A stretch of 33,913 nucleotides of DNA, taken from a virus. A program made the position numbers and the translations under genes. The notes beneath the pieces are model-generated. The model searched no databases, was not told where the DNA came from, and saw only the letters and a list, made by a program, of their open reading frames with translations. The stretch spans positions 1 through 33,913 of the IMG/VR virus record IMGVR_UViG_3300043399_000935. The stretch is one strand, 5' to 3'. Positions 1,886-28,156 of the stretch are shown piece after piece. Every line of letters begins with the position of its first letter. Position 1 is the stretch's first letter.

Positions 1886-2558
1886 AAAGTATTTTCACAA
1901 TGCACGGTCCCGCGCCCGCGCAGAGAACTTGCCGTTTGATTTAACCTACGAGTACCTGCTATCCATTGCAACCGACGAGTGCCCGATCTTTAAGACGCCA
2001 TTCACGTGGGGTGTATCGAATCTTGGTAAAGGCAAGACACGGGCCGACACGCCGCAATTAGACCGAATTATACCCGAACTGGGATATGTACAGGGCAACG
2101 TGGCGTTTATATCAGGCAAGGCAAACAAGATGAAGGACAACGGCACAATGCAAGAACACTATGCAATTGCCGATTGGATTTGGGAAAGAACACATGCTAA
2201 AGAGAAATCAGTTACACCAATATCAACAGGATCTTATATCGAAGGCGCAGTCGATACCCAATCTAGCGCTCTTCCTACCTCCGGGGCTGGGAAAGACAGC
2301 AACGACGCTAACGATTATCGCGGAGCAACTCAAGGGGAAAACTCTTATCGTAGCGCCAAAGAGGGTAGCGGAGACAGTGTGGGACACCGAGACGCAGAAG
2401 TGGGAACACCTATGTACCCTGAAGGTTTCGAAGATCCTTGGGACACCAGCTCAACGGTTGGCAGCGTTAACGAGTGGTTCGAGCGTGTTCGTAGTCAATC
2501 TCGAGAACTTGATCTGGCTACTGGAACAGCAAGTAAAGTTCGACAATTTGGTGATTGA
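1866..2558 (+). CDS. HNH-type homing endonuclease with long read-on tail
   Basis: The gene starts at GTG 1866, with GAGGA at 1853-1857. The first 108 residues match the HNH protein at 15057-15497: a basic helix with NARSRARAENLPFDL, the segment CPIFKTPF, then LDRIIPELGYVQGNVAFIS and ANKMKDNGT, the D-R...GY...N...K pattern of this HNH group. It lacks the N-terminal zinc ribbon of its two relatives in the window. From residue 110 the frame overlaps the helicase gene (2194-2558), and these 121 residues are Ser/Gly/Asp-rich with no recognisable fold. The nuclease core ends exactly where the helicase starts, so the tail probably results from a lost stop codon. Confidence 0.75.
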   Translation: MKQQHIKKYFHNARSRARAENLPFDLTYEYLLSIATDECPIFKTPFTWGVSNLGKGKTRADTPQLDRIIPELGYVQGNVAFISGKANKMKDNGTMQEHYAIADWIWERTHAKEKSVTPISTGSYIEGAVDTQSSALPTSGAGKDSNDANDYRGATQGENSYRSAKEGSGDSVGHRDAEVGTPMYPEGFEDPWDTSSTVGSVNEWFERVRSQSRELDLATGTASKVRQFGD

Positions 2559-3537
2559 CGAATCCAGTCGGTTTAAGGATCCCAGCACTAAGCGTTTTAA
2601 AGCCCTCAAGAAACATCTAAAGGGCTTTGAGAGGCGTATTATCCTCACCGGCACCCCTACCCCTCAGGGCATTCCAGATCTCTGGTCTCAGGTGGGTATT
2701 TTGGATCTTGGGCAGCGTTTAGAGACAACCCTGACGGCGTTTAGGGCAAAGTACTTAACACCCGATAAGATGAATCGGCACACGCACGTGGTGTACAGCT
2801 GGAAATTACAACAAGGTGCAGAGAAAATCATCAAAGACAAGATTGCAGACATTTGCTTTTCTTTAAAAGCGGAAGACTATCTGCAACTACCCAAACTAAA
2901 CAATATGTTTCACAAAATACAACAAAGTGCAGAGTTTCGTACAAAATACGATACACTCAGAAAGGATATGGTGGCACAAATTGGTAACGAAACTATCACG
3001 GCAGCGACGGCGGCAACGCTCACAGGCAAATTGCTCCAGCTTACCTCAGGCGCAATTTATAACGCCGACGGTGAGTGGCAAAATATTCACGATGCTAAAT
3101 TGGAGTACCTCGAGTCTATCATGGAAGAGGCTAGCGGGCCCGTTTTGGTTTTCTACCACTTTAAACACTCTCTCGAGCGTATTAAGAAAAACTTTCCGCA
3201 GGCCGTAGAGCTCCGCGACTCAGCCACTCAGATCAAAGACTGGAATGAGGGCCGTATTCCAATGCTCTTAGCACACCCGCAGTCTGGCGGGATTGGACTA
3301 AACCTGCAGTGTAATACCGGCGAGACGGCGCAGACGGTCTGGTTTGATCTGCCGTGGTCTTCCGAAAACTACATCCAGGCCAACGCACGGATCTACCGAC
3401 AGGGCCAGGAGAAGCCGGTTATTATACACCACCTCGTTATGTCTAATACCATCGACGAGCAGGTTGTAAAGGTCTTGGACGGTAAAATAAATTTGCAGGA
3501 AGCCTTGTTAGACGCCCTAAAATTTGCATTAGTGTAA
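2194..3537 (+). CDS. SNF2-family DNA helicase/ATPase
   Basis: This is a 447-residue protein when started at ATG 2194 (MLKRNQLHQYQQDL); an ATG at 2161 would lie inside the HNH core. Superfamily 2 motifs are in order: Q-motif region at the start, Walker A PPGLGKT with K34, Walker B VIDESS at 120-125 (DESS instead of DEAH), motif III ILTGTP, then the C-terminal RecA lobe with LVFYHF, SGGIGLNLQ and the arginine-finger motif ARIYRQGQ. Size and motifs match the compact phage SNF2 helicases that accompany VRR-NUC and DUF2800/2815/PolA. It is likely a translocase for replication or recombination. The last codons (GCA TTA GTG TAA) lie within a TTTGCATTAGTGTA box. Confidence 0.92.
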   Translation: MLKRNQLHQYQQDLISKAQSIPNLALFLPPGLGKTATTLTIIAEQLKGKTLIVAPKRVAETVWDTETQKWEHLCTLKVSKILGTPAQRLAALTSGSSVFVVNLENLIWLLEQQVKFDNLVIDESSRFKDPSTKRFKALKKHLKGFERRIILTGTPTPQGIPDLWSQVGILDLGQRLETTLTAFRAKYLTPDKMNRHTHVVYSWKLQQGAEKIIKDKIADICFSLKAEDYLQLPKLNNMFHKIQQSAEFRTKYDTLRKDMVAQIGNETITAATAATLTGKLLQLTSGAIYNADGEWQNIHDAKLEYLESIMEEASGPVLVFYHFKHSLERIKKNFPQAVELRDSATQIKDWNEGRIPMLLAHPQSGGIGLNLQCNTGETAQTVWFDLPWSSENYIQANARIYRQGQEKPVIIHHLVMSNTIDEQVVKVLDGKINLQEALLDALKFALV

Positions 3538-3538
3538 A
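3523..3538 (+). promoter_or_regulatory. Operon box 1 (TTTGCATTAGTGTA), upstream of ACP-KAS
   Basis: The box overlaps the last codons and stop of the helicase gene and stands 28 bases before the ACP start. The strong SD (AGGAG at 3541) begins only two bases after it. Reading TTGCAT as a classical -35 would put the transcription start inside the ACP gene, so the box itself or its TA-rich end must lie at the start point, if it is a promoter. Confidence 0.6.
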
Positions 3539-3550
3539 GTAGGAGAGATT

Positions 3551-3835
3551 ATGGACAAACTTGAACTATTTAACGAAACAATCAAACGCGCAAGACCTGT
3601 CAGCGGTGACGAGGTAAAAGCCAAGTCGTTAGATCAACCACTGAATGAAATTGGCATCGATAGTTTAGACGTTATTATGATCTCGGTATATTTCTCAGAG
3701 ATCTACGGCGTATCGGAAGAGAAAGCTAAAGAACTACAGCCTAAAACACCAAGACAGTTTTTTGAGCTGTATGAAGCAAACGGAACGAAGAGCCCTAAGA
3801 CAATTCAAGAAGCATTAGGTAATATTGAGTTTTAA
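3551..3835 (+). CDS. Acyl carrier protein
   Basis: This 94-residue protein has the phosphopantetheine site LNEIGIDSLDVIMI, with Ser38 in the GxDSL motif at the start of helix II. It also shows the usual four-helix pattern, with the acidic recognition helix after the Ser (ISVYFSEIYGV). An AGGAG SD stands five bases before the ATG. The gene is followed after one base by a beta-ketoacyl synthase, so the pair forms a minimal chain-extension unit. No phosphopantetheinyl transferase or malonyltransferase is in the window; the host's AcpS and FabD would be needed. The C-terminal 20 residues extend past the normal ACP end. ACPs are rare in phages. Confidence in the family is high; the acyl product is unknown. 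Confidence 0.88.
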   Translation: MDKLELFNETIKRARPVSGDEVKAKSLDQPLNEIGIDSLDVIMISVYFSEIYGVSEEKAKELQPKTPRQFFELYEANGTKSPKTIQEALGNIEF

Positions 3836-3836
3836 G

Positions 3837-4964
3837 ATGAAAACTTATCTTACTAAATACAAAACATTATCTACAACCAATACCAAAGTATTGAGTGATT
3901 TAATATATCCACAACGTGTGCACTGGATGCCAGAATTGTATGCTCGAGTAAAGACTGGACTATCTTATGTGCCACATGAAATGGCTAATCGAGTGGCAAC
4001 ACAAGATCTTGTAGACTACGTTAAATCTAATCCAGTGGACGGGAAGACAGCATTTTTATTGGCGGCTGGGTCACAGGGCTGGGCTGGCGGTAAGGCAAAA
4101 AATCAAGACAGGCCAAGCGAATTAGATTACACATTTAAACTAGGCATGCTCACGATGACGAATGTTTACGCTGGCCGAATGGCTTCGGTGTTTGAAGCCT
4201 ACGATTTTGTGTCAACCGATGCGAGTGCCTGCGCTTCCAGTATTAAGTGCATGGTAGACGCAAAAAACTTGATTGATAACCTTGGGTTTGACCGCGTAAT
4301 TATTTTGGCTTTGGAAGACCAAACCTCTAAAATGACCTTAGAATTTTTTGGACAAATGAAAGCTAACATTTTAATTTCAGACGAAGAAAAAGGCGCGATG
4401 CCCTCGGCGTTTGATAGTAAAAATGGCGGGTTTATTATTGGGCAAGGCGCTGCTATTGGCATAATTGAATCCGAGCGAGCTGTTAACAAAAATGCCGTTA
4501 AACCAGAAGCCGAACTACGAGGCGTATGGGTGTCGGCAGAGCAATTGTCAAATCCAATTGGTCAACGGCCAGATGGTCAAGGCTATCAGCGTGCTATCAC
4601 TGGAGCCATGGCACAAGCAAAATGCAAACCCGAAGATATCAAGATTGTAAAAACGCACGGCACTGGAACACCAACCAATAATCAATCTGAAAAGAACGCG
4701 CTACTGTCAACATTACGCGGTGGATTTATTGCTACGTCCTACAAACAATATATCGGCCACACAGTGGCGGCAAGTGGGCTACTAGAGACAGGGTTAATAT
4801 TGGATGACATTAAAAAAGGAATCATACCAGCGATTAAAAACAGAACAGAAGATGATGATACATTTATTTCAAAAGATACCGCCGCACCAGAAGGGCTTTT
4901 AATGAGTTTAGCGGCGGGAATGGGGAATATTTACGCAGCAGCTATATTTGATCAAAAAGTATGA
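3837..4964 (+). CDS. Beta-ketoacyl-ACP synthase (KAS I/II-like)
   Basis: This 375-residue protein starts at ATG 3837, one base after the ACP stop; the in-frame TTG at 3825 lies inside the ACP gene. The thiolase-fold condensing enzyme residues are complete: nucleophile C132 in STDASACASSIKC, H274 in KTHGTGTPTNNQSE, K303 and H308 in YKQYIGHTVAASG. It also has the AFDSKNGGFIIGQGA segment corresponding to RPFDxxRDGFVxGEGA. It is about 35 residues shorter than FabF and has lost the usual N-terminal VVVTG strand. An active decarboxylating condensation with an acyl-ACP and malonyl-ACP is expected. It could lengthen host fatty acids, build a special acyl chain, or supply a modification; which one is not visible. 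Confidence 0.9.
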   Translation: MKTYLTKYKTLSTTNTKVLSDLIYPQRVHWMPELYARVKTGLSYVPHEMANRVATQDLVDYVKSNPVDGKTAFLLAAGSQGWAGGKAKNQDRPSELDYTFKLGMLTMTNVYAGRMASVFEAYDFVSTDASACASSIKCMVDAKNLIDNLGFDRVIILALEDQTSKMTLEFFGQMKANILISDEEKGAMPSAFDSKNGGFIIGQGAAIGIIESERAVNKNAVKPEAELRGVWVSAEQLSNPIGQRPDGQGYQRAITGAMAQAKCKPEDIKIVKTHGTGTPTNNQSEKNALLSTLRGGFIATSYKQYIGHTVAASGLLETGLILDDIKKGIIPAIKNRTEDDDTFISKDTAAPEGLLMSLAAGMGNIYAAAIFDQKV

Positions 4965-5272
4965 AAACAATAACTAAACACAAAGTAAACGCTACAGCTC
5001 CGCGCCTGTCTGATGAAGACCCAGATCCAATCGAGCAAGATGAATCAGAGGGAGTATCATCGACACTGATTGAAGGTTGGCTACCATGGGAGCCGGAAGA
5101 CATTGCAGACATTCGTAAGTTAATTGCAGAACGTTTGCCACCTAAGCAGCAGTTTATTATCGAGGCATTTTTAGATGGTTTGACCTACAACGATGTGTGC
5201 GTGACTGAGAAGTATTGGCGCTATCATTTTGCTAAGGGCATTGAGCTAATTCGTAAGGAACTAAAACTATGA
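4961..5272 (+). CDS. Sigma-70 region 4-like helix-turn-helix protein
   Basis: This 103-residue protein overlaps the KAS stop (ATGA). The N-terminal 45 residues are acidic and disordered. The C-terminal 55 read like sigma region 4: IRKLIAERLPPKQQFIIEAF, then DGLTYNDVC, then a recognition-helix stretch ending GIELIRKELKL. The turn of the helix-turn-helix is about four residues shorter than in ordinary sigma factors. No region 2 is present, so it cannot act as a complete sigma factor. It could bind the beta flap as a co-activator or anti-sigma, or bind DNA. It is a good candidate for a regulator of the TTGCATTAGT boxes, but that is inference. Confidence 0.55.
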   Translation: MKTITKHKVNATAPRLSDEDPDPIEQDESEGVSSTLIEGWLPWEPEDIADIRKLIAERLPPKQQFIIEAFLDGLTYNDVCVTEKYWRYHFAKGIELIRKELKL

Positions 5273-7080: not shown

Positions 7081-7155
7081 GCTGGTTTAGCTCAGAGGTA
7101 GAGCAACTGCCTTGTAAGCAGTAGGTCCGCGGTTCAATCCCGTGAACCAGCACCA
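7081..7155 (+). tRNA. tRNA-Thr (anticodon UGU)
   Basis: This is a complete cloverleaf: acceptor GCTGGTT paired with AACCAGC, D-stem GCTC/GAGC, anticodon arm ACTGC-CTTGTAA-GCAGT with anticodon TGT (reads ACA and other Thr codons), T-arm CGCGG-TTCAATC-CCGTG (one G-U pair), discriminator A and an encoded CCA at 7153-7155. It lies 16 bases after the preceding gene and five bases before a second CCA-ending element. Phage tRNAs usually balance codon use between phage and host. The encoded CCA is usual for bacterial tRNAs. Confidence 0.95.
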
Positions 7156-9678: not shown

Positions 9679-9704
9679 TTTTGCATTAGTAGTTTTAAGG
9701 GTAG
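9679..9704 (+). promoter_or_regulatory. Operon box 4 (TTTTGCATTAGTAG) before the ssDNA-binding gene
   Basis: The box begins at the base after the previous stop. Its downstream part TTTTAAGGGTAGA resembles that of box 2, suggesting a longer conserved element of about 26 bases with a second half GGGTAGA. The gene start is 75 bases downstream, and the leader contains the inverted repeat GAACTGGCCCCTATTGAAGACCAGTTC in two halves (AACTGG / CCAGTT). Confidence 0.65.
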
Positions 9705-9753
9705 ACGAACTGGCCCCTATTGAAGACCAGTTCTAATGTTAAAAAGGTAATTT

Positions 9754-10272
9754 ATGACACAAAGCACTAAAGTAAAAGTAGTAACCGGTAAAGTACGTTT
9801 CTCTTATGCTAACGTATTTGCTCCCAAGGCATCTGTCGAGGGCGGCACACCAAAGTACTCCGTTTCTATTATCATCCCCAAGTCCGATAAAGAAACTGTT
9901 GCCAAGTTACAAAAAGCATTTGAGGAAACTAAAGCAGCCTCCGCAGGTTATTTCGGCGGTTCGGTTCCTAAGAATCTAAAAGGCGGTTTGCGTGACGGCG
10001 ATCAGGAAAAGGAAGATCCAGCATACGAAGGTTGCTATTTTATCAATGCAAACTCAGTGCAAAAGCCAGGCGTTGTAGATCAAGATCTCAACCCCATCTT
10101 GGATCAAAGCGAGTTCTATAGCGGTTGTTATGGTCGCGCATCAATCACGTTCTACCCATACAATGCTCAGGGTTCTAAGGGCATCGCATGTGGTCTGAAC
10201 AATGTTCAAAAACTAGAAGACGGAGAGAAGTTAGGCGGTGGTACCACTGCAGCAGCTGACTTTGCCGTATAA
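9754..10272 (+). CDS. DUF2815 single-stranded DNA-binding protein
   Basis: This 172-residue protein matches DUF2815, an OB-fold phage ssDNA-binding family. Its landmarks are VKVVTGKVRFSYANVFAP, then PKYSVSIIIPKSDKETV, a central GGSVPKNLKGGLRDGDQEK, then GCYFINANSVQKPGVVD and YSGCYGRASITFYPYNAQG. The acidic/Ala end (GGTTAAADFAV) resembles the flexible tail of SSBs that contacts partner proteins. It would cover ssDNA at the phage fork beside PolA and the SNF2 helicase. It has its own box and a good SD (AAAAAGGTAA), consistent with high-level synthesis. Confidence 0.92.
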   Translation: MTQSTKVKVVTGKVRFSYANVFAPKASVEGGTPKYSVSIIIPKSDKETVAKLQKAFEETKAASAGYFGGSVPKNLKGGLRDGDQEKEDPAYEGCYFINANSVQKPGVVDQDLNPILDQSEFYSGCYGRASITFYPYNAQGSKGIACGLNNVQKLEDGEKLGGGTTAAADFAV

Positions 10273-10279
10273 GGAAATT

Positions 10280-10717
10280 ATGTCAAAACAAGTAAAAGGA
10301 ACAAGGACTGAACAGTCTTTAAAAGAAGCATTTGCCGGCGAATCCAAAGCTAACCGTCGCTACCTCTACTTTGCAAACCTTGCAGACGTAGCAGGTGCCA
10401 ACGATGTAGCAGCGGTATTTCGCTCAACGGCGGAAGGTGAAACTGGTCACGCACACGGCCATATGGAGTACTTGATCGCTGGCGGTAGTGGCGATCCTGA
10501 GACTGGTCTGCCTGCCAAAACCGTTGAAGAGGCATTGAAGTCGGCTATCGCTGGCGAGACTCACGAGTACAGCGATATGTATCCCGGCATGGCCAAAGTC
10601 GCACGCGACGAGGGCTTTGAAGAGATCGCCGACTGGTTTGAGACATTGGCAAAAGCTGAGCGCAGCCACGCCAATAAGTTTACTAAGACGCTTAACGCAT
10701 ACTTAGAAAACGCTTAA
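10280..10717 (+). CDS. Rubrerythrin (ferritin-like diiron domain only)
   Basis: This 145-residue protein starts at ATG 10280, with AAGGAAATT before it; the frame from 10238 lies in the DUF2815 gene. The diiron ligands of rubrerythrin are all present: E21 (FAGESKA), E54/H57 (EGETGHAH), E93/E96 (AGETHEY) and E127/H130 (KAERSH). The C-terminal rubredoxin domain is absent, so an external electron donor is needed. The usual role is peroxide reduction. Seven bases separate it from the ssDNA-binding gene and it is followed by a terminator, so it belongs to the replication unit. It may protect the oxygen-sensitive enzymes of nucleotide synthesis, or act on host iron or redox state. Confidence 0.92.
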
Positions 10718-16510: not shown

Positions 16511-18418
16511 TTAGCACTTCCATTTACGCAGGGCCTTGTTGATGCGTGAATCTGGATCGTTTGCTGTCTTAGCAGAGGTTAGCTTTTTCTTCATACCACC
16601 CATTCTAGCACAGAACGATTTCTTACGTGCGCCACCTTCTGGTTGTGGTGCTTTTAGCTCGCCGCCAGTCTCGCGTTTGTACGATGCGCGACCAAGTGCA
16701 TTCAAACCGCCCGATGGGCTTTTGCCTTCTTTGCGCTGCCAAGCTGGCGTTGTGCTGCCACCTTCTTTATATCCCATCTCTTGCAACGAGCGTAATAGCT
16801 TCTCGTCGATTACTTGCGCTGGAATACCGACAGACTGACGATAGTTGTAATCAGACAGTGGGCGGCCGAGTTCTTTCATGGCCTTGGCTTCTAAGTCGCG
16901 GAACAAAAATTCACGAGGCACCGGAACAAATTGATCCTCGCCTTTTTCACCAATGATTAGATTGCGGTAACCTGGATGAACATCTGGTTTTAATACTTGC
17001 GATTCTGCAGTAAATAACTGAGGACCAATTGCGCCGAGCTCAGCTTCACGCAATGCCGGATCAATTGTTTCATCTAAATGTTTTTGTAGATCGACAGCAC
17101 CAATTCGCTTTTGACCCATGATATCGGCAATTGTGCCGCGACGATGGAACGCGTTGGCGTAATCTAAAAACTCTTCACTAGTAATGTCTGGAGCACCAGG
17201 GAGCGATTTCTCAATTGACAGCCTCTTGTTTAATGCAGCGATTTGCTCAGGCGTTACCTTACCAGCGCGCATGTCTTCTAACAGTTGCGCGTACATTTTT
17301 TCAAACACCGGACGATTAGATCTGTGTGCTGTAGTGCTCATTAACATCGGAGAGATAACGGCACGTTTAGAACGACCAGCACGCTCTACGGCGTTTAATA
17401 AACGACTAGCTGCGCCAGGAGAATCCATGGCCCATGTATACTCTGGGTGTAAATTAATAAACCCAGGGCCGCCAGAGAATCCGCCAGTTGCTTTGGTACG
17501 ATCAGCCATCGTGCCTAGTAATGTTTTGCCTTCTTGAGGTATTAACACCTCAGATAACTTTTTTACAGCTTTACCCTTAGCGTAGCCAGCCAAGCCTCCC
17601 TCTTTCATAGGTTGGGGTTGAGCGGCTGGTTGCTGCGGTTGTGCTTTGGATTTAAGATAATCGATGTATGCGTTCAACGCACCAGCACCCATACCAATAG
17701 CTGTACCGCCAATACGTGTGACGGGGTGTGGGATTAATGACGCAGCAGATCCAGCAGCACCAATAGCACCTAAACCAGCGCCAAGATAATCACCTTCTTT
17801 AAACCGATTGTATGCGTCGGAGGCTTGTAAACCAGCGCCTGCGCCAGCTGCAGATTTTAATAGCAGCGGCATTTTGCCAGCGGTAGCTTGAGCAATACGG
17901 CCAGGAATAGAGCCGGCTGCTTTATTGGCAGCGCGCATTTGTGCAAAACGAGCAGCGTCCGCTTCTTTAGCAGCGATATCTTGCATAGCTTTTGGACCAC
18001 CCAAAGCGCCACCAGTAATTTTGCTAGTGACTTTACCCTTACCAAGAGGTGCCTCACGGCGTTTAAATTCTTCTACAACGTTTTCAACCGTTTCACCAGT
18101 GCCCGCACCATAACCGGTTTTAGCAGCCCACTTTTGTCCTGGTGTACCTGCACCAGGGGGAGGGGGAGTTGTTACACCTTTTGGACCGTAGGCAGTCTCG
18201 AGTACCTTACCAGCAACCGGACCAGCAATCGCACCAACAGCACCCGCAGCAATTGGATTCTCAATCATGCTTTCTTCGCCAGCCTCAAGAATCTGTTTAT
18301 TCTCTTGCTGCGCTTGTAGTTCACGAATGTAGTCCGCAATCTGCTGTGCGTCTTCTTTATTACCAGCGGCGTCAGCCTGCTGGAGTGCATCGTAAGCCCG
18401 TTGTAATTGTGGATCCAT
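16511..18418 (-). CDS. Large internal virion / polyvalent-type protein with conserved C-terminal module
   Basis: This 635-residue protein has an N-terminal helix pair (about 1-40) and a Gly/Ala-rich hydrophobic segment at about 52-72 (IENPIAAGAVGAIAGPVAGKV). A second long one is near 185-255 (LGAGLGAIGAAGSAASLIPHPV), a form typical of proteins ejected across the membrane. Then come EGG motifs and a globular part (about 290-530) with GGFSGGPGFINL, TWAMDSPG and PMLMSTTAHRSNRPVF, reminiscent of domains in polyvalent phage proteins. The end (about 560-635) is a Cys-containing basic module, RKKSFCARMGGMKKKL and RINKALRKWKC, seen at the C-termini of many phage proteins (DUF6321-type, from memory). 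Ejection or delivery into the host is the likely role. Confidence 0.55.
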   Translation of the reverse strand: MDPQLQRAYDALQQADAAGNKEDAQQIADYIRELQAQQENKQILEAGEESMIENPIAAGAVGAIAGPVAGKVLETAYGPKGVTTPPPPGAGTPGQKWAAKTGYGAGTGETVENVVEEFKRREAPLGKGKVTSKITGGALGGPKAMQDIAAKEADAARFAQMRAANKAAGSIPGRIAQATAGKMPLLLKSAAGAGAGLQASDAYNRFKEGDYLGAGLGAIGAAGSAASLIPHPVTRIGGTAIGMGAGALNAYIDYLKSKAQPQQPAAQPQPMKEGGLAGYAKGKAVKKLSEVLIPQEGKTLLGTMADRTKATGGFSGGPGFINLHPEYTWAMDSPGAASRLLNAVERAGRSKRAVISPMLMSTTAHRSNRPVFEKMYAQLLEDMRAGKVTPEQIAALNKRLSIEKSLPGAPDITSEEFLDYANAFHRRGTIADIMGQKRIGAVDLQKHLDETIDPALREAELGAIGPQLFTAESQVLKPDVHPGYRNLIIGEKGEDQFVPVPREFLFRDLEAKAMKELGRPLSDYNYRQSVGIPAQVIDEKLLRSLQEMGYKEGGSTTPAWQRKEGKSPSGGLNALGRASYKRETGGELKAPQPEGGARKKSFCARMGGMKKKLTSAKTANDPDSRINKALRKWKC

Positions 18419-21589: not shown

Positions 21590-24500
21590 TTATGCCTTTG
21601 TTCTACGTTGTGCGTCTATTAAATATGCCAAGGGGCCTTTGCTATCGGGCGGCAGTTTCTTCGAATCTGCATTCCGCTTATGCTCCCTTATTACTTTTAA
21701 AAACTGATCTAATACGCCTGCGCCTGCGTCGTTACTACCATTGCCTAAAGATGATACTACGTCAGCCGGGATCACAAACTCACCATCTGCTAACAGGGCG
21801 GGCACGCTATCGCTGGTACCATCGCCGTCACCTTTTACAAAACGGTTTTCAATCGAGCTCAATCCACCTTCAGAATAAAACTGTGGGTTATGCCCTTCTA
21901 CTTCGCCACCCTCAGCTTTACCTTGCAAATAATCAGGCATACCTGTGAGGATGTAATTAATTTGTGCGCGGGTTAGTGATGGAGTTAAACCAGAACCACT
22001 GATTGCCTTGGTGTCAACCGAGAACGGATCGTAGTTAGTCGATCCACCAGTAGCCATTTGCGGTATAATCTGGGGTGCATTAAACATTGGATTTACAGCA
22101 TCTTCATCAGATGGTAAACCTGCTAAGTTGTAGTCCATTCTTTCTGTTAATCCCGCTGTTAAGTTTTTGATGCCGCCAACGGCGTCTTGGCTTAGTAATC
22201 CGTAGCCACCCGGTATTGCAAAACCGCCGCCACCGATACCACCAATTCCAAATCCTAATCCACCAGTTCCAGTGCCGCCGGTTCCTGTACCGCCGCCACC
22301 GGTTCCGCCAGTGCCTGCACCAGATTGATCTGTTCCGCCAGCTCCGCCAGGGGTTGTGGTCGTACCTCCAGCTCCACCGGTAGTTGTTGGCCCGGTAGTT
22401 GTTGCTCCGGTTCCAGGGGTTGTTCCAGAACCAGTGCCTCCAGTTGTTCCTGTGCCTCCAGTGGTGCCAGGGGTGCTTGTACCGCCAGGTGTGGTTGGTG
22501 CTCCGGTGCCAGTGCCACCAGGTGTGGTTGTAGTTCCTGTCCCGGAAGTAGCAATCTTTTTAGTTTCTGGCGCTTTAAATAAGCGATCTACTAAAAACTG
22601 ATATTCATCAGGGAGATCAACTCCGGGCGTGTATATGCCATACTTATCAACTAGCTTTTGTAATTCTATTTCAGGCACGCCCTCTGCGCGATACTGATCA
22701 ATATCTCGCTGGGTTAAACGCAGACCGCTTTCGTCAACACCTGTTGAAGTACCAGTTCCAGCGCCCCCGCCAATACCGCCAGTTTCAGGTTCCCCAATTG
22801 GAATTGGTTCCCACTGTTGGGTTTCTTTGTTAAAACGTTTTGCGTCAAAGAATGATTTTTCAGAAGGGGGTAAATATGCGCCACCTGTACCAGCGCTTTG
22901 TGTTCCGGTTCCACGAGCTAAAATAGCGTCGTCTTCGCCTTTAGCTAACGCAAACGCCTGATCAATATTCTCAGGACCCAACGCATTTAAATAAAGCTGG
23001 TATGCTCTCTTGCCTTCCGGCGTTGTCAGTTCTGCAAGATTCTTGTCAATCGGGCTCTCAAGTCGTGTTCCAGGACCAGCAAACATTTTTGCCGCAGAAA
23101 AAATCTCTGCTAACGGGCCGCCCAATCCCGATTTAACGGAATCAATGTACGCCTGCTGCTGCTCTTTACTTGTTCCGCCAACAATGTTAGCAGCACTTAA
23201 AGCCTGATTTGCGTCTAACCCTTGAATCCTAGCATTAAAGAACGCGTCTTGTTGTGCTTTGTCAAGACTATTAATTGCATTCGCTGTCTGTAGCGCGGCG
23301 TTCGGATCTGGGTTTTCTGCCAACGAATCAAAGAACGACTGCATAGCAACCACTGACATTTTTGAAATGTCTGGGGCAAACTGAAGCGCGTCTTCTGTGC
23401 GCATCCCAAAACCTTTAGCAAACTCATACATTTGCTGGTTCTGCTCTGGCAACGCGTTTACTTGTTGCGACAGATTAATAGCTTTTGTTAAATCGCCAGT
23501 TTCACCAAATAGATCTGCAAATGTACTCTTAGCAATCGGTGAGTACTCAGAGGCTTGTTTGTACGCATTTTCGACTTCTTGCGACTTGGCATTTAATGTG
23601 TTCTGCATTTCATCCACAGAGCCATTAAACTGATCGGCCGCTTGATTTACAACATTTGCCTGATCATCTACTTTTTTAAACGCTGCGGTGTACTGATCGT
23701 TTAATTGATTTAACTTGTTTACGTAACCTAGATACGTATTGTTTTTAGTTTCGAAGTCGTTTCTAGCTACTTCGTAAGCGGAGAAATCTGTATTGTACCG
23801 ATCTGTAACTTCGTTTAAGCGTGGTATTAACGCATTAGCCTGGTCAGCGTATTGGTTAGCTAAATCAATGTTGTTAGCTGCTTTTGCTGCATCGTACTTA
23901 GAAACTAAATCAGAAAATTGATCCGCTACTGATTTGTATTGATCAAACGAAGATGAAGCTGTTTTAAATGCGTTTTGCGCAAGTTGTTCTGCAGGACTTA
24001 AAACATCATTAGCAAAAGTTTCAGCCTGAGTCTTAACTGATTCACTTTCGCCAAGTAATACTTCGGCTTGCGATTCAGCATCAGCTTTAAATTCTGTTAG
24101 TTTTTTGGCTTGCTCTAAAAACGATTGCTTTACGTCTTCAACTTTATCTTTAAACGGCTGAATAGCTTCGTTTAAATATTTAGTTAATCCTTTAGCAACT
24201 TCGGTATTTTTTAATGCGGTACCAGCTTCGGCTAAACTGGTGCGAACAATATTGTTAACCAGTGCAGTGTTAAATATCTCGCCGGCGTCTTGACCTTCTA
24301 CTGCGCCAGCTGCTGCGGCGCCAGCGGTTCTACCTAATACTTGCGCAACTCTAGTGTTTAAACCTAAATCTCTTAGTTGAGTAGTGGTTTGTGTTCCTGC
24401 AAATGAGCCAACGCCACCACTCGCAGCGTCTAACAATATTTGATTTAAATTACCACCTTGCAACGCAGTCATCGCGGCGGATCCGCCAGCGTTCGCCAAC

Positions 24501-25045
24501 GCAGTGTTAATTGACTGCAATACTGATACAGGTAATTGCGACGCTAGACTCGGTGCAATTGTCGCTGGTGTTGTGGACAACGCACCATTGACACTTTGTA
24601 AAATTGTACTGCCGTCGCTAAATACGTGCTGAATGGTTCCGTCAGCTAATGTATTCGTTGCTGTTAAAGAGGCGTTTCCTGCAGAACTTGTTAACTCGGT
24701 AGCAAAATAATCATTTAAGCCTTCTGAAATACCTTGAGCAGCCCAAGCGGCTGCGGCTGATATTGCGCCAGCTTTTAACGCTTGTTCAATACTACCGCCA
24801 TTAGCAACAACGCTTGTGGCAGAAATTAATGGTAGCGCCCAGTATTGCTGTGTTGCAACCGCTGCAATGTTAGCAAGGGTTCCAATTGGATTCTTAGCAG
24901 CTGCTTCACCAACCTTACCAATCTCGCGGCCAAGAGATTCAGCACCTTTGCCGACCTCACGAACTACAGATTCAACGCTCTTACCAACGCTCTTTAGCGC
25001 TGGACCTGGATCGATAGCGGCTAGTGCGTTACCAACAGCACTCAT
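21590..25045 (-). CDS. Very large internal virion / tail protein
   Basis: At 1151 residues this is the largest protein in the window. The N-terminal 280 residues are Ala/Gly-rich with amphipathic or hydrophobic stretches (NIAAVATQQYWALPLISATSVV). Residues about 285-520 are coiled coil (KDKVEDVKQSFLEQAKKL and later). A helical repeat-like region follows to about 700. About 830-945 is a low-complexity Gly/Thr/Pro segment (TGTTTTPGGTGTGAPTTPGG-like). The C-terminal 120 has EGG tags (PQFYSEGGLSS) and the conserved end module GDGDGTSDSVPALLADGEF, VIPADVVSSLGNGS and LPPDSKGPLAYL, found at the ends of many virion proteins in aquatic phages. It is likely an ejected DNA-transfer protein or a tape-measure analogue. 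Confidence 0.6.
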   Translation of the reverse strand: MSAVGNALAAIDPGPALKSVGKSVESVVREVGKGAESLGREIGKVGEAAAKNPIGTLANIAAVATQQYWALPLISATSVVANGGSIEQALKAGAISAAAAWAAQGISEGLNDYFATELTSSAGNASLTATNTLADGTIQHVFSDGSTILQSVNGALSTTPATIAPSLASQLPVSVLQSINTALANAGGSAAMTALQGGNLNQILLDAASGGVGSFAGTQTTTQLRDLGLNTRVAQVLGRTAGAAAAGAVEGQDAGEIFNTALVNNIVRTSLAEAGTALKNTEVAKGLTKYLNEAIQPFKDKVEDVKQSFLEQAKKLTEFKADAESQAEVLLGESESVKTQAETFANDVLSPAEQLAQNAFKTASSSFDQYKSVADQFSDLVSKYDAAKAANNIDLANQYADQANALIPRLNEVTDRYNTDFSAYEVARNDFETKNNTYLGYVNKLNQLNDQYTAAFKKVDDQANVVNQAADQFNGSVDEMQNTLNAKSQEVENAYKQASEYSPIAKSTFADLFGETGDLTKAINLSQQVNALPEQNQQMYEFAKGFGMRTEDALQFAPDISKMSVVAMQSFFDSLAENPDPNAALQTANAINSLDKAQQDAFFNARIQGLDANQALSAANIVGGTSKEQQQAYIDSVKSGLGGPLAEIFSAAKMFAGPGTRLESPIDKNLAELTTPEGKRAYQLYLNALGPENIDQAFALAKGEDDAILARGTGTQSAGTGGAYLPPSEKSFFDAKRFNKETQQWEPIPIGEPETGGIGGGAGTGTSTGVDESGLRLTQRDIDQYRAEGVPEIELQKLVDKYGIYTPGVDLPDEYQFLVDRLFKAPETKKIATSGTGTTTTPGGTGTGAPTTPGGTSTPGTTGGTGTTGGTGSGTTPGTGATTTGPTTTGGAGGTTTTPGGAGGTDQSGAGTGGTGGGGTGTGGTGTGGLGFGIGGIGGGGFAIPGGYGLLSQDAVGGIKNLTAGLTERMDYNLAGLPSDEDAVNPMFNAPQIIPQMATGGSTNYDPFSVDTKAISGSGLTPSLTRAQINYILTGMPDYLQGKAEGGEVEGHNPQFYSEGGLSSIENRFVKGDGDGTSDSVPALLADGEFVIPADVVSSLGNGSNDAGAGVLDQFLKVIREHKRNADSKKLPPDSKGPLAYLIDAQRRTKA

Positions 25046-25545
25046 TACTTTTTATCCTTTTTTGCCGCAAATTTCTTTTGTTCTTCGACTGCCCTAACTC
25101 TTGGTGTGTCACCTAAACTAGCGATAACCTGATAGCCACCGTCAACGGTTTTATTGACTTGATAGCCCATGTTTTTAAATGGCATGTGGCGGCCAATGTA
25201 TTCGAATATTTTAAGCAGAGAGGCGTCGTAAAATTGGGTGATCATGTATTTAAAACCCATCAACCCAACAGCTTTGGTAAACTCAATGCAGTTCTTTAGA
25301 TAGTTTGGCAAAATGTCCGCGTTTACGGCACGGAATATAGCTACTACAGGGTTAGATTTATCTTGGTGAACAATGAAAATTGTGTTACCTTGACGAATCA
25401 TTAAAGCGCCGAGCTCATAAGCCTCGGCCGTTAAACTGGCCTTGACCTGCTCGGCAGTATACTTGCCTCCGGTTTCCCTGGAGGCAATTTCAATTATTTC
25501 TTCTTGGGATAACTCCCGTTGTTTTGAGTCTACGAAAGACGTCAC
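25045..25545 (-). CDS. Virion-cluster protein, possibly acetyltransferase-like
   Basis: This 166-residue protein has a globular alpha/beta core: EEIIEIASRETGGKYTAEQV, then LGALMIRQGNTIFIV, VVAIFRAVNADI, EFTKAVGLMGFKYMITQF and IFEYIGRHMPFKNMGYQV. The order, including the final 'F..y.G...P....MGY..', recalls the GNAT-like small proteins next to internal core genes in T7-like phages (gp13 type), but a cofactor-binding loop is not evident. The Lys-rich tail (EEQKKFAAKKDKK) overlaps the next gene's ATG by one base. The assignment is tentative. Confidence 0.45.
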   Translation of the reverse strand: MTSFVDSKQRELSQEEIIEIASRETGGKYTAEQVKASLTAEAYELGALMIRQGNTIFIVHQDKSNPVVAIFRAVNADILPNYLKNCIEFTKAVGLMGFKYMITQFYDASLLKIFEYIGRHMPFKNMGYQVNKTVDGGYQVIASLGDTPRVRAVEEQKKFAAKKDKK

Positions 25546-25775: not shown

Positions 25776-26021
25776 TTATTGCTGTGGACCGTTGATAATT
25801 AAGGCAAATTCTTCCGCCCAGTCACGCCAATCGGTGTATGTATCTGGGTCTGGGATGGGGTAAACTTCAAACTCTGGCAGCTGGGTTACATTATAAGCAA
25901 CCATTTTCCAATCCTGCTCTGACGCATACGGGATTGGCTGCTCACCGTAATACATAATCAAGTTGCCATTCCAGTTTTCCCATGAGCTACCTTCTGGCAA
26001 AAATGGGAAGTATTGTGTCAT
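25776..26021 (-). CDS. Hypothetical virion-cluster protein
   Basis: This 81-residue acidic, Trp/Tyr-rich protein (TQYFPFLPEGSSWENWNGN, DPDTYTDWRDWAEEFALI) overlaps the gp10-like stop as ATGA. Aromatic-rich short proteins of this shape often accompany tail or internal core genes in aquatic podophages. No named family is recognised. It ends the second leftward transcription unit before box 7. Confidence 0.6.
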   Translation of the reverse strand: MTQYFPFLPEGSSWENWNGNLIMYYGEQPIPYASEQDWKMVAYNVTQLPEFEVYPIPDPDTYTDWRDWAEEFALIINGPQQ

Positions 26022-28156
26022 GGCCGCTCGTCGCCGTACTCTGCGGTAATCAAAATACGACCCATTTCAAAGTTACCATCTAAGACGTTAGACTCAAACT
26101 TCAGTTTAATCTCCCTATGCTCAACGCGAAGATCAATCTTACCGGTATCTGGGTCAAACGGGAACGGGCCTGAGTTTTCAATTGAACCCCTGGCAAACTT
26201 TCTACCTAAAACAGTCATAGTCATTTCGCCGGTTTGCACAAAGTCTGGCTCAACACGACGCAAGTGCATGCGACGATTTACGCCGGATGGTGAGTCTTGT
26301 GACGGTGTTCCGCCAACCCAACTGATGTCGCAAGTTGTAATGGAGGATGTAATGGCGGTCTCTTCGTTAAATGTAATTCGGTTTGTGCCAAACTCATGCT
26401 GCCATAGAGGGAATCCGCCCTCGATGTAATACACTAAATCACCTGGTTGTTGGACTGGATCAAAATTTTCAGCCACCGTAATTAACGTCACGCCGTCTGG
26501 GTTAGTAGCAGTAACCGCCGAAGTGAAAATAAATTGGCTGGTTAAGATTTTAAAGACGGTTGGTGTTGGGTCGTTATTAGTTAACGAGATATAGTCGCCA
26601 GCGCCAAATGTTGTAGTGACGTCACCATTAATATAAATTTGATTATTGTTAGCGGGTGACAAAGCAGCCGGGTTAGCTACTACCGTAAACGGCGGGCTGT
26701 ACGTCTGCAGCTCTTCCCAGCCAGCCCAAATTGGTGTTGGGAAGATCTCAGTGGTGTATCCACACGAGCGACGTGACCCAGGGGCTTGTCCGGCATCGTA
26801 CCAGATTTTATCCTTGACGTTGTAAATAATTGCGTCGGTGCACTCAGTGGCATCTCCGCGGGGATAAAAGAACCAGATCTCATTATACCGAGGTACTTTG
26901 GTAGCCCATACCTTTTGGCGCTGTACGAAATTGATGTTATCAAATAGCCAGTTTACGTTCTTGTCATTTGGCAGTACAGAAACCGCACCATTGTATTGGT
27001 AGAAGCGGTCAACACCCATCCAGTAATAAATACCATCCATCTCTACAAAACATGACGATGACATGGTAGAGATCTGGCTAGAAATAATATCATAGCGCCA
27101 GTATAGCGTTGCGGCGCCAGTAAATGAAACACGAATCAAACTGTCAGTGGCCCAAAACAACCCAGACGGCGAATTAGTACCACCACGAACTGGGATGCCC
27201 TTGACAATTTTAGATGATGCCATATTGACCTGATTGGCGATTGGTCCGTTCCAATCGGTCAATGTTTGCTGATTGTAGTTTGCTAAAGTTGTATTGGTAT
27301 CGACGTTATTGTTTGCGATGAATCCATCGGATCCATATACAAACACAAACGGATATAACACGCATACGCCACCGTCTACTTCGATGGGGCGATATGTTGG
27401 AGTTTGACCGCCGGTGTCTGCCAGCACTTCAAAATTCCACTCGTTGTTTGAATCAGGTAACAAATTGCCAACTAATACCGGACTCTTAATGGCGTTGTCA
27501 ATATTATCTAAATTAAAACCACCGTGCGCAAGTACTTGTAGCGCGCCGCCAGCTGGCGAATATTGTAAATCAAACTGCCATAGTAAATGTTGGTTGGGTT
27601 GAAATGCTACGTCATACAACCATACGTTTGTTGGTGAACCAGAAATTGTTCCACCAGTTATTGTTACCGTTGTATTTGGTGCTGAATAAACAGCGGTTGA
27701 AACAGTTAACGCAGACGGCGATGTCTGACTGAAGATAACCGTTGTATTGGTCGGAAATGCTGCCGTTACGTCGCCCGCAATAACGAATTGCGTTGTGGTG
27801 TTTGACACCAACGTAAACATGCCGTAGCCTGGTAATATGTTGGCGGTGTACGGGCCGCTGCCAACACCGAATGTTGTACCAGTGGTGAATACTTCTAAGC
27901 CAAATTGATTGCCAACAAAAACATAGTTTACGCCGTTAAATGCGTTGGTAACCATTCCACGAGGGACGCCGGTGAACGTTGCAAATAGTTCACGGTATCC
28001 GCCAATTTTCTTAGGCACGCCTCGTTGAAAGCGGCACCATTCGCCATCACTAAATTCACGCGATTCAAATGTAGTACCGTCTCGTTTAATACCAGGCTGA
28101 ACGCCCAGGGTGTGAACCAGACTATACTGGGCCTGCGTTGCATTCTGTTCTGCCAT
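26018..28156 (-). CDS. Tail hub / stopper protein, P22 gp10-like beta-propeller type
   Basis: This 712-residue protein is mostly beta. The front reads TLGVQPGIKRDGTTFESREF, then DGEWCRFQRGVPKKIGGYRE, a pattern of podophage proteins related to the DNA stabilisation or stopper protein gp10 of P22: an 'N...G..kD...F....d..wcrF..G.P.K..Gy' opening followed by repeated beta blades (YVFVGNQFGLEVFT, YYWMGVDRFYQYNG, IWFFYPRGDA). The end (NRRMHLRRVEPDF, FARGSIENSGPFPFDPDTGK, LKFESNVLDGNFEMGRILI) is the conserved closing region. It probably seals the head-tail junction or forms the tail nozzle. The family call is from pattern only. Confidence 0.55.
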   Translation of the reverse strand: MAEQNATQAQYSLVHTLGVQPGIKRDGTTFESREFSDGEWCRFQRGVPKKIGGYRELFATFTGVPRGMVTNAFNGVNYVFVGNQFGLEVFTTGTTFGVGSGPYTANILPGYGMFTLVSNTTTQFVIAGDVTAAFPTNTTVIFSQTSPSALTVSTAVYSAPNTTVTITGGTISGSPTNVWLYDVAFQPNQHLLWQFDLQYSPAGGALQVLAHGGFNLDNIDNAIKSPVLVGNLLPDSNNEWNFEVLADTGGQTPTYRPIEVDGGVCVLYPFVFVYGSDGFIANNNVDTNTTLANYNQQTLTDWNGPIANQVNMASSKIVKGIPVRGGTNSPSGLFWATDSLIRVSFTGAATLYWRYDIISSQISTMSSSCFVEMDGIYYWMGVDRFYQYNGAVSVLPNDKNVNWLFDNINFVQRQKVWATKVPRYNEIWFFYPRGDATECTDAIIYNVKDKIWYDAGQAPGSRRSCGYTTEIFPTPIWAGWEELQTYSPPFTVVANPAALSPANNNQIYINGDVTTTFGAGDYISLTNNDPTPTVFKILTSQFIFTSAVTATNPDGVTLITVAENFDPVQQPGDLVYYIEGGFPLWQHEFGTNRITFNEETAITSSITTCDISWVGGTPSQDSPSGVNRRMHLRRVEPDFVQTGEMTMTVLGRKFARGSIENSGPFPFDPDTGKIDLRVEHREIKLKFESNVLDGNFEMGRILITAEYGDERP

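Follow-up and report, generated by a model that had tools for sequence, protein, structure and literature searches.

A phage acyl carrier protein and condensing enzyme linked to a GNAT-fold protein and its virion neighbor, with a candidate role in protein acylation

Many uncultured water-borne phages carry adjoining genes for an acyl carrier protein (ACP) and a beta-ketoacyl synthase (KAS), and this pair is linked to a GNAT-fold protein encoded beside a large virion protein. We propose that these genes form a dedicated acyl-ACP system that would attach an acyl chain to the neighboring virion protein, much as HlyC-type acyltransferases act on their targets. We regard this reading, in which donor, acceptor and chain are all putative, as evenly balanced between right and wrong. 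The DNA analyzed here, referred to as the window, is the full 33,913 bases of IMG/VR virus record IMGVR_UViG_3300043399_000935, which states no completeness. Gene calls come from a simple ORF script, and the records used are incomplete. In the window, the pair sits in the early region, within the following arrangement:

2161..3537 (+): SNF2-type helicase, left border of the early-region site
3538..4958 (+): ACP-KAS cassette, exactly absent in a close relative, which has an empty site (junction of this relative compared with the window by blastn)
3551..3835 (+): phage ACP, 94 aa, with a GIDSLD motif and predicted phosphopantetheine site at Ser38 (translation)
3837..4964 (+): phage KAS, 375 aa, with C132, H274, K303 and H308 intact and a gatekeeper loop of GMGN, not GFGG
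4961..5272 (+): right border of the early-region site, a 103-aa protein with weak, sub-threshold similarity to sigma-70 region 4 (E 0.096)

The translation bears out the serine site that a preliminary description of this DNA had assigned to the ACP, and a single base does separate the ACP stop from the KAS start (ATG at 3837, stop at 4964). A profile search matched KAS to Ketoacyl-synt_C (E 9.5e-19) and ketoacyl-synt (E 1e-7), while ACP reached PP-binding (PF00550) only below threshold (E 0.0034; 18.0 bits, under the gathering score of 20.8). The closest solved relatives of KAS are FabF enzymes (E about 3e-22). The idea that the two genes have an operon box of their own was not supported: 13 nt lie between the helicase stop and ACP, KAS runs 4 nt into the gene behind it, and promoter-like matches in the region (8, against 4.6 in shuffles, sd 1.9) are not clearly above chance. 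Searching Rfam gave nothing within the cassette, and models of defence systems gave no match. The 103-aa protein downstream contains an invariant TEKYWRYHF motif and has 449 relatives in IMG/VR. Where dN/dS was computable it came to 0.05-0.06 for KAS and 0.03-0.13 for ACP, figures that are rough because dS is saturated. Since these ratios are low and 454 KAS relatives were confirmed in IMG/VR, the cassette is not a product of chance.

All four catalytic residues of the phage KAS align with their FabF counterparts (C163, H303, K335 and H340) and are invariant across 50 phage homologues in our alignment, in agreement with what had been read from the window alone. The N-terminus had also been called short relative to FabF, and it is: the E. 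coli enzyme has 413 aa, and the phage protein has about 31 residues fewer before the Cys. By fold family, by its Cys-His-His and Lys residues and by its partner ACP with a DSL serine motif, the phage KAS resembles FabF and FabB (KAS II and KAS I) with AcpP. Its placement in that fold rests on sequence (a single-sequence structure model reached pLDDT 32). The phage enzymes nonetheless stand apart from FabF and FabB. In a maximum-likelihood tree, 23/23 phage KAS fall in one clade (support 100/100) whose branch measures 3.7 changes per site, separate from FabF, FabB, KSalpha, CLF, PKS and others, and the window KAS scores 112 bits against the NCBIfam fabF cut-off of 493.75. Where FabF has the gatekeeper GFGG(T/H)N, the window KAS has GMGNIY, and GMGN is found in 160 of the 162 loci among the matches listed; the Asp that follows HGTGT is replaced by Asn. 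These data support KAS as a condensing enzyme that is intact, under selection and provided with its own carrier, and for which condensation itself is predicted.

The tree was also checked for catalytically dead relatives. KAS does not group with the chain-length factors, and we reject it as one because the active-site Cys132 is kept, where two chain-length factors in the same alignment have Gln. A type II PKS minimal set was rejected as well: each phage locus has a single KAS gene, with no second KAS in the neighborhoods, among the matches listed. The altered gatekeeper and the Asn after HGTGT could instead indicate that KAS shifts host acyl chains to the phage ACP without real elongation, or that ACP is a decoy for the partners of host ACP. 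We think this quite unlikely, as both His and the Lys required for decarboxylative condensation are invariant, and a pure decoy needs no KAS, yet KAS is present in 162/162 loci among the matches listed.

A pairing of this kind had been called very unusual in a small tailed phage, a view that its distribution contradicts. The 454 relatives came from one IMG/VR scan with a 9-sequence KAS alignment as query, with matches confirmed by tblastn; an independent ACP scan confirmed 155. From these we took the best 80 of 454 and the best 80 of 155, and the locus set comprises 162 phage loci among the matches listed, in which some contigs are repeated and 66 loci are non-redundant at 90% KAS identity. 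Throughout this set of listed matches ACP lies directly upstream of KAS (162/162, 112 with a 4-nt overlap) and has a DS[LV] serine motif (162/162). MW202545 (Manatee Spring, 57 kb, circular) is the one annotated phage record with family members, and a scan of 84,980 cellular genomes gave one member and otherwise remote KAS among the matches listed. The pair is neither a rarity nor a chimera. Assembly error and host contamination had to be considered for a window that is a single incomplete metagenomic record, but their probability is negligible: the same pair and its neighbors recur in many independent contigs and in circular MW202545, and the sole member from a cellular genome sits in a MAG contig whose genes are arranged as in the phages.

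We found the ACP-KAS pair in two genomic positions. In type A, which includes the window and accounts for 32 non-redundant loci among the matches listed, the order is helicase, ACP, KAS and sigma-like gene. In type B (34/66 non-redundant loci among the matches listed), the pair lies inside the virion operon, as a rule in the order stabilization-like virion protein, small gene, ACP, KAS, GNAT and large virion protein. At least 4 switches of position are required by well-supported branches, and both genes always switch together; ACP-KAS therefore travels as one unit. Many type A sites are unoccupied: 75 intact helicase/sigma-like junctions divide into 34 with the pair and 41 that are empty. This early site takes further cargo besides ACP-KAS, a 160-aa gene being found between helicase and ACP in three loci (L005:205-687, L006 and L007). 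Upstream of the helicase, some KAS-carrying phages encode two conserved small proteins (L138:2340-3141, also L106, L116 and L145), the second of which starts like a lipoprotein (LxxCSS).

Although the window has its pair in the early region, its virion region encodes a homologue of the gene that follows KAS in type B:

21590..25045 (-): large virion protein, putatively an ejection protein and the proposed acyl acceptor, 1151 aa, N-terminus MSAVGNAL, overlapping the GNAT gene by 1 nt
25045..25545 (-): GNAT-fold protein, a putative acyl-ACP-dependent acyltransferase, 166 aa (fold model and synteny)
25776..26021 (-): 81-aa gene marking the virion-side slot, with a conserved WExWNxN motif (alignment and slot survey)
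26018..28156 (-): phage stabilization-like virion protein bounding the slot, phrog_3287 (synteny with MW202545)

The GNAT gene is directly upstream of the 1151-aa gene, and it is from the position of the latter behind the stabilization-like gene, not from a family match, that we infer an ejection protein. In type B, the GNAT-fold protein has about 150 aa. The GNAT and KAS co-occur. When both the early and the virion junctions are available in a record, the GNAT is present in 7/7 records with KAS (the window, G022, G023, G024, G027, G030 and G033) and in 1/9 without it (Fisher one-sided p 0.0007, relatedness ignored). That single exception, G001, also keeps the N-terminal motif described below and is incomplete upstream of the helicase. 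The KAS-carrying records without a GNAT are uninformative because the virion junction is missing from them. Reading the frames of the L470 slot showed a GNAT there. Phages lacking KAS have either nothing or other proteins in this slot, one of them with a weak canonical GNAT match (PF00583, 0.0013; L351:9644-10096) and another at L421:4462-4905, which suggests a site of gene swapping. The virion module is also present in Caulobacter phage GB2A, where the stretch examined has no GNAT or KAS and the motif is absent. The virion region of the window also encodes a protein (16511-18418, -) ending in a DUF6321 domain (PF19846, 1.8e-19) that is common to several phage families.

The gene after the GNAT varies widely in size, encoding 165 to 2254 aa (some cut at contig ends), and its product starts with M-[S/G/A]-[A/G/F]-V-V and similar sequences. 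A strict form of this motif, M-[S/G/A]-x-V-V, which was defined post hoc, occurs in 78/99 distinct N-termini with a GNAT and in 0/29 without one, against a background of 3/329 other genes. Residue 2 alone is a weak discriminator (95/99 versus 19/29). The motif may mirror shared ancestry of the N-terminus.

We next turn to the GNAT-fold protein itself. An AlphaFold2 model (pLDDT 92.5) has the GNAT fold, with Z 11.3 and rmsd 2.7 over 125 residues to RimI and HP0935; by sequence, the best PDB match has E 3.6e-5. In place of the CoA pyrophosphate motif (Q/R)xxGx(G/A), the beta4-alpha3 segment reads FRALNADTAxNF (family alignment, read by eye). Pfam gave no match for the window GNAT, nor any match to the RtxC/HlyC-type family for any of 27 GNAT members, and the 50 structures listed by the fold search include no relative of RtxC. 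The modeled fold does not favor any class among N-alpha-, lysine- or small-molecule acyltransferases, and the protein may be inactive or may use a donor other than acyl-ACP.

Three known groups of enzymes frame what such a protein could do. Acyl-ACP is the donor for HlyC-type enzymes, which have a GNAT-like fold without CoA elements (PMC8339906). Like these toxin-activating acyltransferases (HlyC/ApxIC, or RtxC), the phage protein combines a GNAT-like fold with loss of the usual CoA elements, and its gene adjoins that of the proposed protein substrate; the differences are that the putative target is a virion protein and that a private ACP and KAS accompany the phage enzyme. We do not claim RtxC/HlyC membership, because there is no sequence match and both donor and acceptor are only putative. 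N-myristoyltransferase and the N-alpha-acyltransferases RimI and NatA are also GNAT folds, RimI is a top structural match, and the putative acceptor N-termini have S, G or A after Met. Sequence homology to these enzymes was not found, Gly is not required in the phage acceptors, and the donor would be acyl-ACP, not acyl-CoA. FeeM, finally, is a known GNAT-like synthase that uses acyl-ACP and has a private ACP, FeeL. This precedent, the GNAT fold and the fact that 3-oxoacyl-ACP is the direct product of a KAS would all fit a route, as in LuxI or FeeM, by which the GNAT couples the 3-oxoacyl-ACP made by KAS to an amino acid or a comparable acceptor, yielding a signal or surfactant. We consider a small-molecule product of this sort unlikely, since both the order of the genes and the N-terminal motif connect the GNAT with a single virion protein, and type B has everything in the structural operon.

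Additional genes bear on whether the carrier would be functional. Some KAS-carrying relatives have a holo-ACP synthase (AcpS) gene a few kb away from the pair; these genes are of three divergent kinds, one in L131, L133 and L153, one in L115 and L116 and one in L067 (PF01648, E 9e-14 to 5e-15). Those located are:

L131:1690-2055, L115:2538-2861, L116:1053-1376 and L067:2332-2706: phage holo-ACP synthases

AcpS is present in a minority of KAS-carrying phages only and in none of 16 records without KAS. Its occurrence in KAS-carrying relatives supports a predicted working holo-ACP. It also argues, together with the invariant catalytic Cys, His, Lys and His and the ACP serine motif at every locus among the matches listed, against ACP, KAS and GNAT being structural or assembly proteins of the virion that perform no acyl chemistry. 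The type B location within the structural operon, and a slot that may equally be empty or occupied by other small proteins, would suit such a role, but we consider it very improbable.

Phage genes of this type have been interpreted in metabolic terms. Roseobacter prophages carry fabG-acpP-fabF, described as a set of auxiliary metabolic genes (PMC8224337). This is also a phage-borne ACP and KAS, in host-type fab order with fabG; in the phages described here there is no fabG by the pair, the KAS is of another clade and the virion linkage is added. An equivalent role here would have KAS with ACP raise or redirect host fatty-acid synthesis, supplying or changing membrane lipids during infection, and the intact condensing residues and the early-region position in the window agree with it. 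We nevertheless find it unlikely. Boosting host synthesis needs no private ACP, the KAS clade is phage-only rather than host-like, no malonyltransferase gene was found among 13 KAS-carrying records, and the link to the virion-operon GNAT and the N-terminal motif is left unexplained. Of the three uses that the preliminary description had offered for the pair, acyl modification agrees best with the data, given the linkage of ACP-KAS with a GNAT-fold protein and with the N-terminus of a single virion protein; membrane remodeling fits less well, yet is kept as a reading.

Our proposal of a dedicated acylation system can be laid out in steps. Host AcpS, or phage AcpS in some relatives, would attach the phosphopantetheine arm to ACP. 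On this private carrier KAS would then build or re-load a chain, drawing on the host for malonyl units. The GNAT-fold protein, lacking the usual CoA-binding motif, would take the chain from phage acyl-ACP and hand it to the virion protein encoded next door, perhaps on an N-terminal Ser, Gly or Ala exposed by Met removal. The acylated ejection-type protein might then be better at inserting into or crossing the host membrane. That the acceptor is the N-terminus rather than a lysine is a possibility we hold only tentatively. Equally on the doubtful side, to our minds, is the complete scheme of self-contained particle lipidation, a phage counterpart of myristoylation wherein the private ACP and KAS (in some phages with AcpS) feed an acyl-ACP-dependent GNAT, and an N-terminally fatty-acylated ejection protein aids entry through the host membrane.

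Other genes of the window were noted in passing. A DUF2815 RNA motif (Rfam RF03084, E 1.4e-13) at 9698-9756 (+) directly precedes the DUF2815 gene (9754-10272), and a rubrerythrin gene (10238-10717, +; PF02915, 5e-25) is encoded within the phage replication module. The single tRNA gene is a tRNA-Thr (TGT) at 7081-7155 (+).

Phage ACPs are already known, and their function has been termed unclear (PMC5463345). Cyanophages P-HM1 and P-HM2 are reported to have an ACP together with a gene named ACP synthetase (ACPS); unlike the present case, the passage on them mentions no KAS or GNAT link (PMC3037559). Searches of open-licence papers turned up no account of the ACP-KAS-GNAT-virion linkage. To our knowledge, fatty acylation of virion proteins has not been described for tailed phages. 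If our reading is correct, phage acpP and fabF genes, often filed as auxiliary metabolic genes, would be reread as genes of virion maturation, and the phages would offer a compact toolkit for acyl-ACP protein acylation. A private carrier, condensing enzyme and transferase, encoded by many environmental phages, would also make the means by which ejection proteins cross the inner membrane directly testable.
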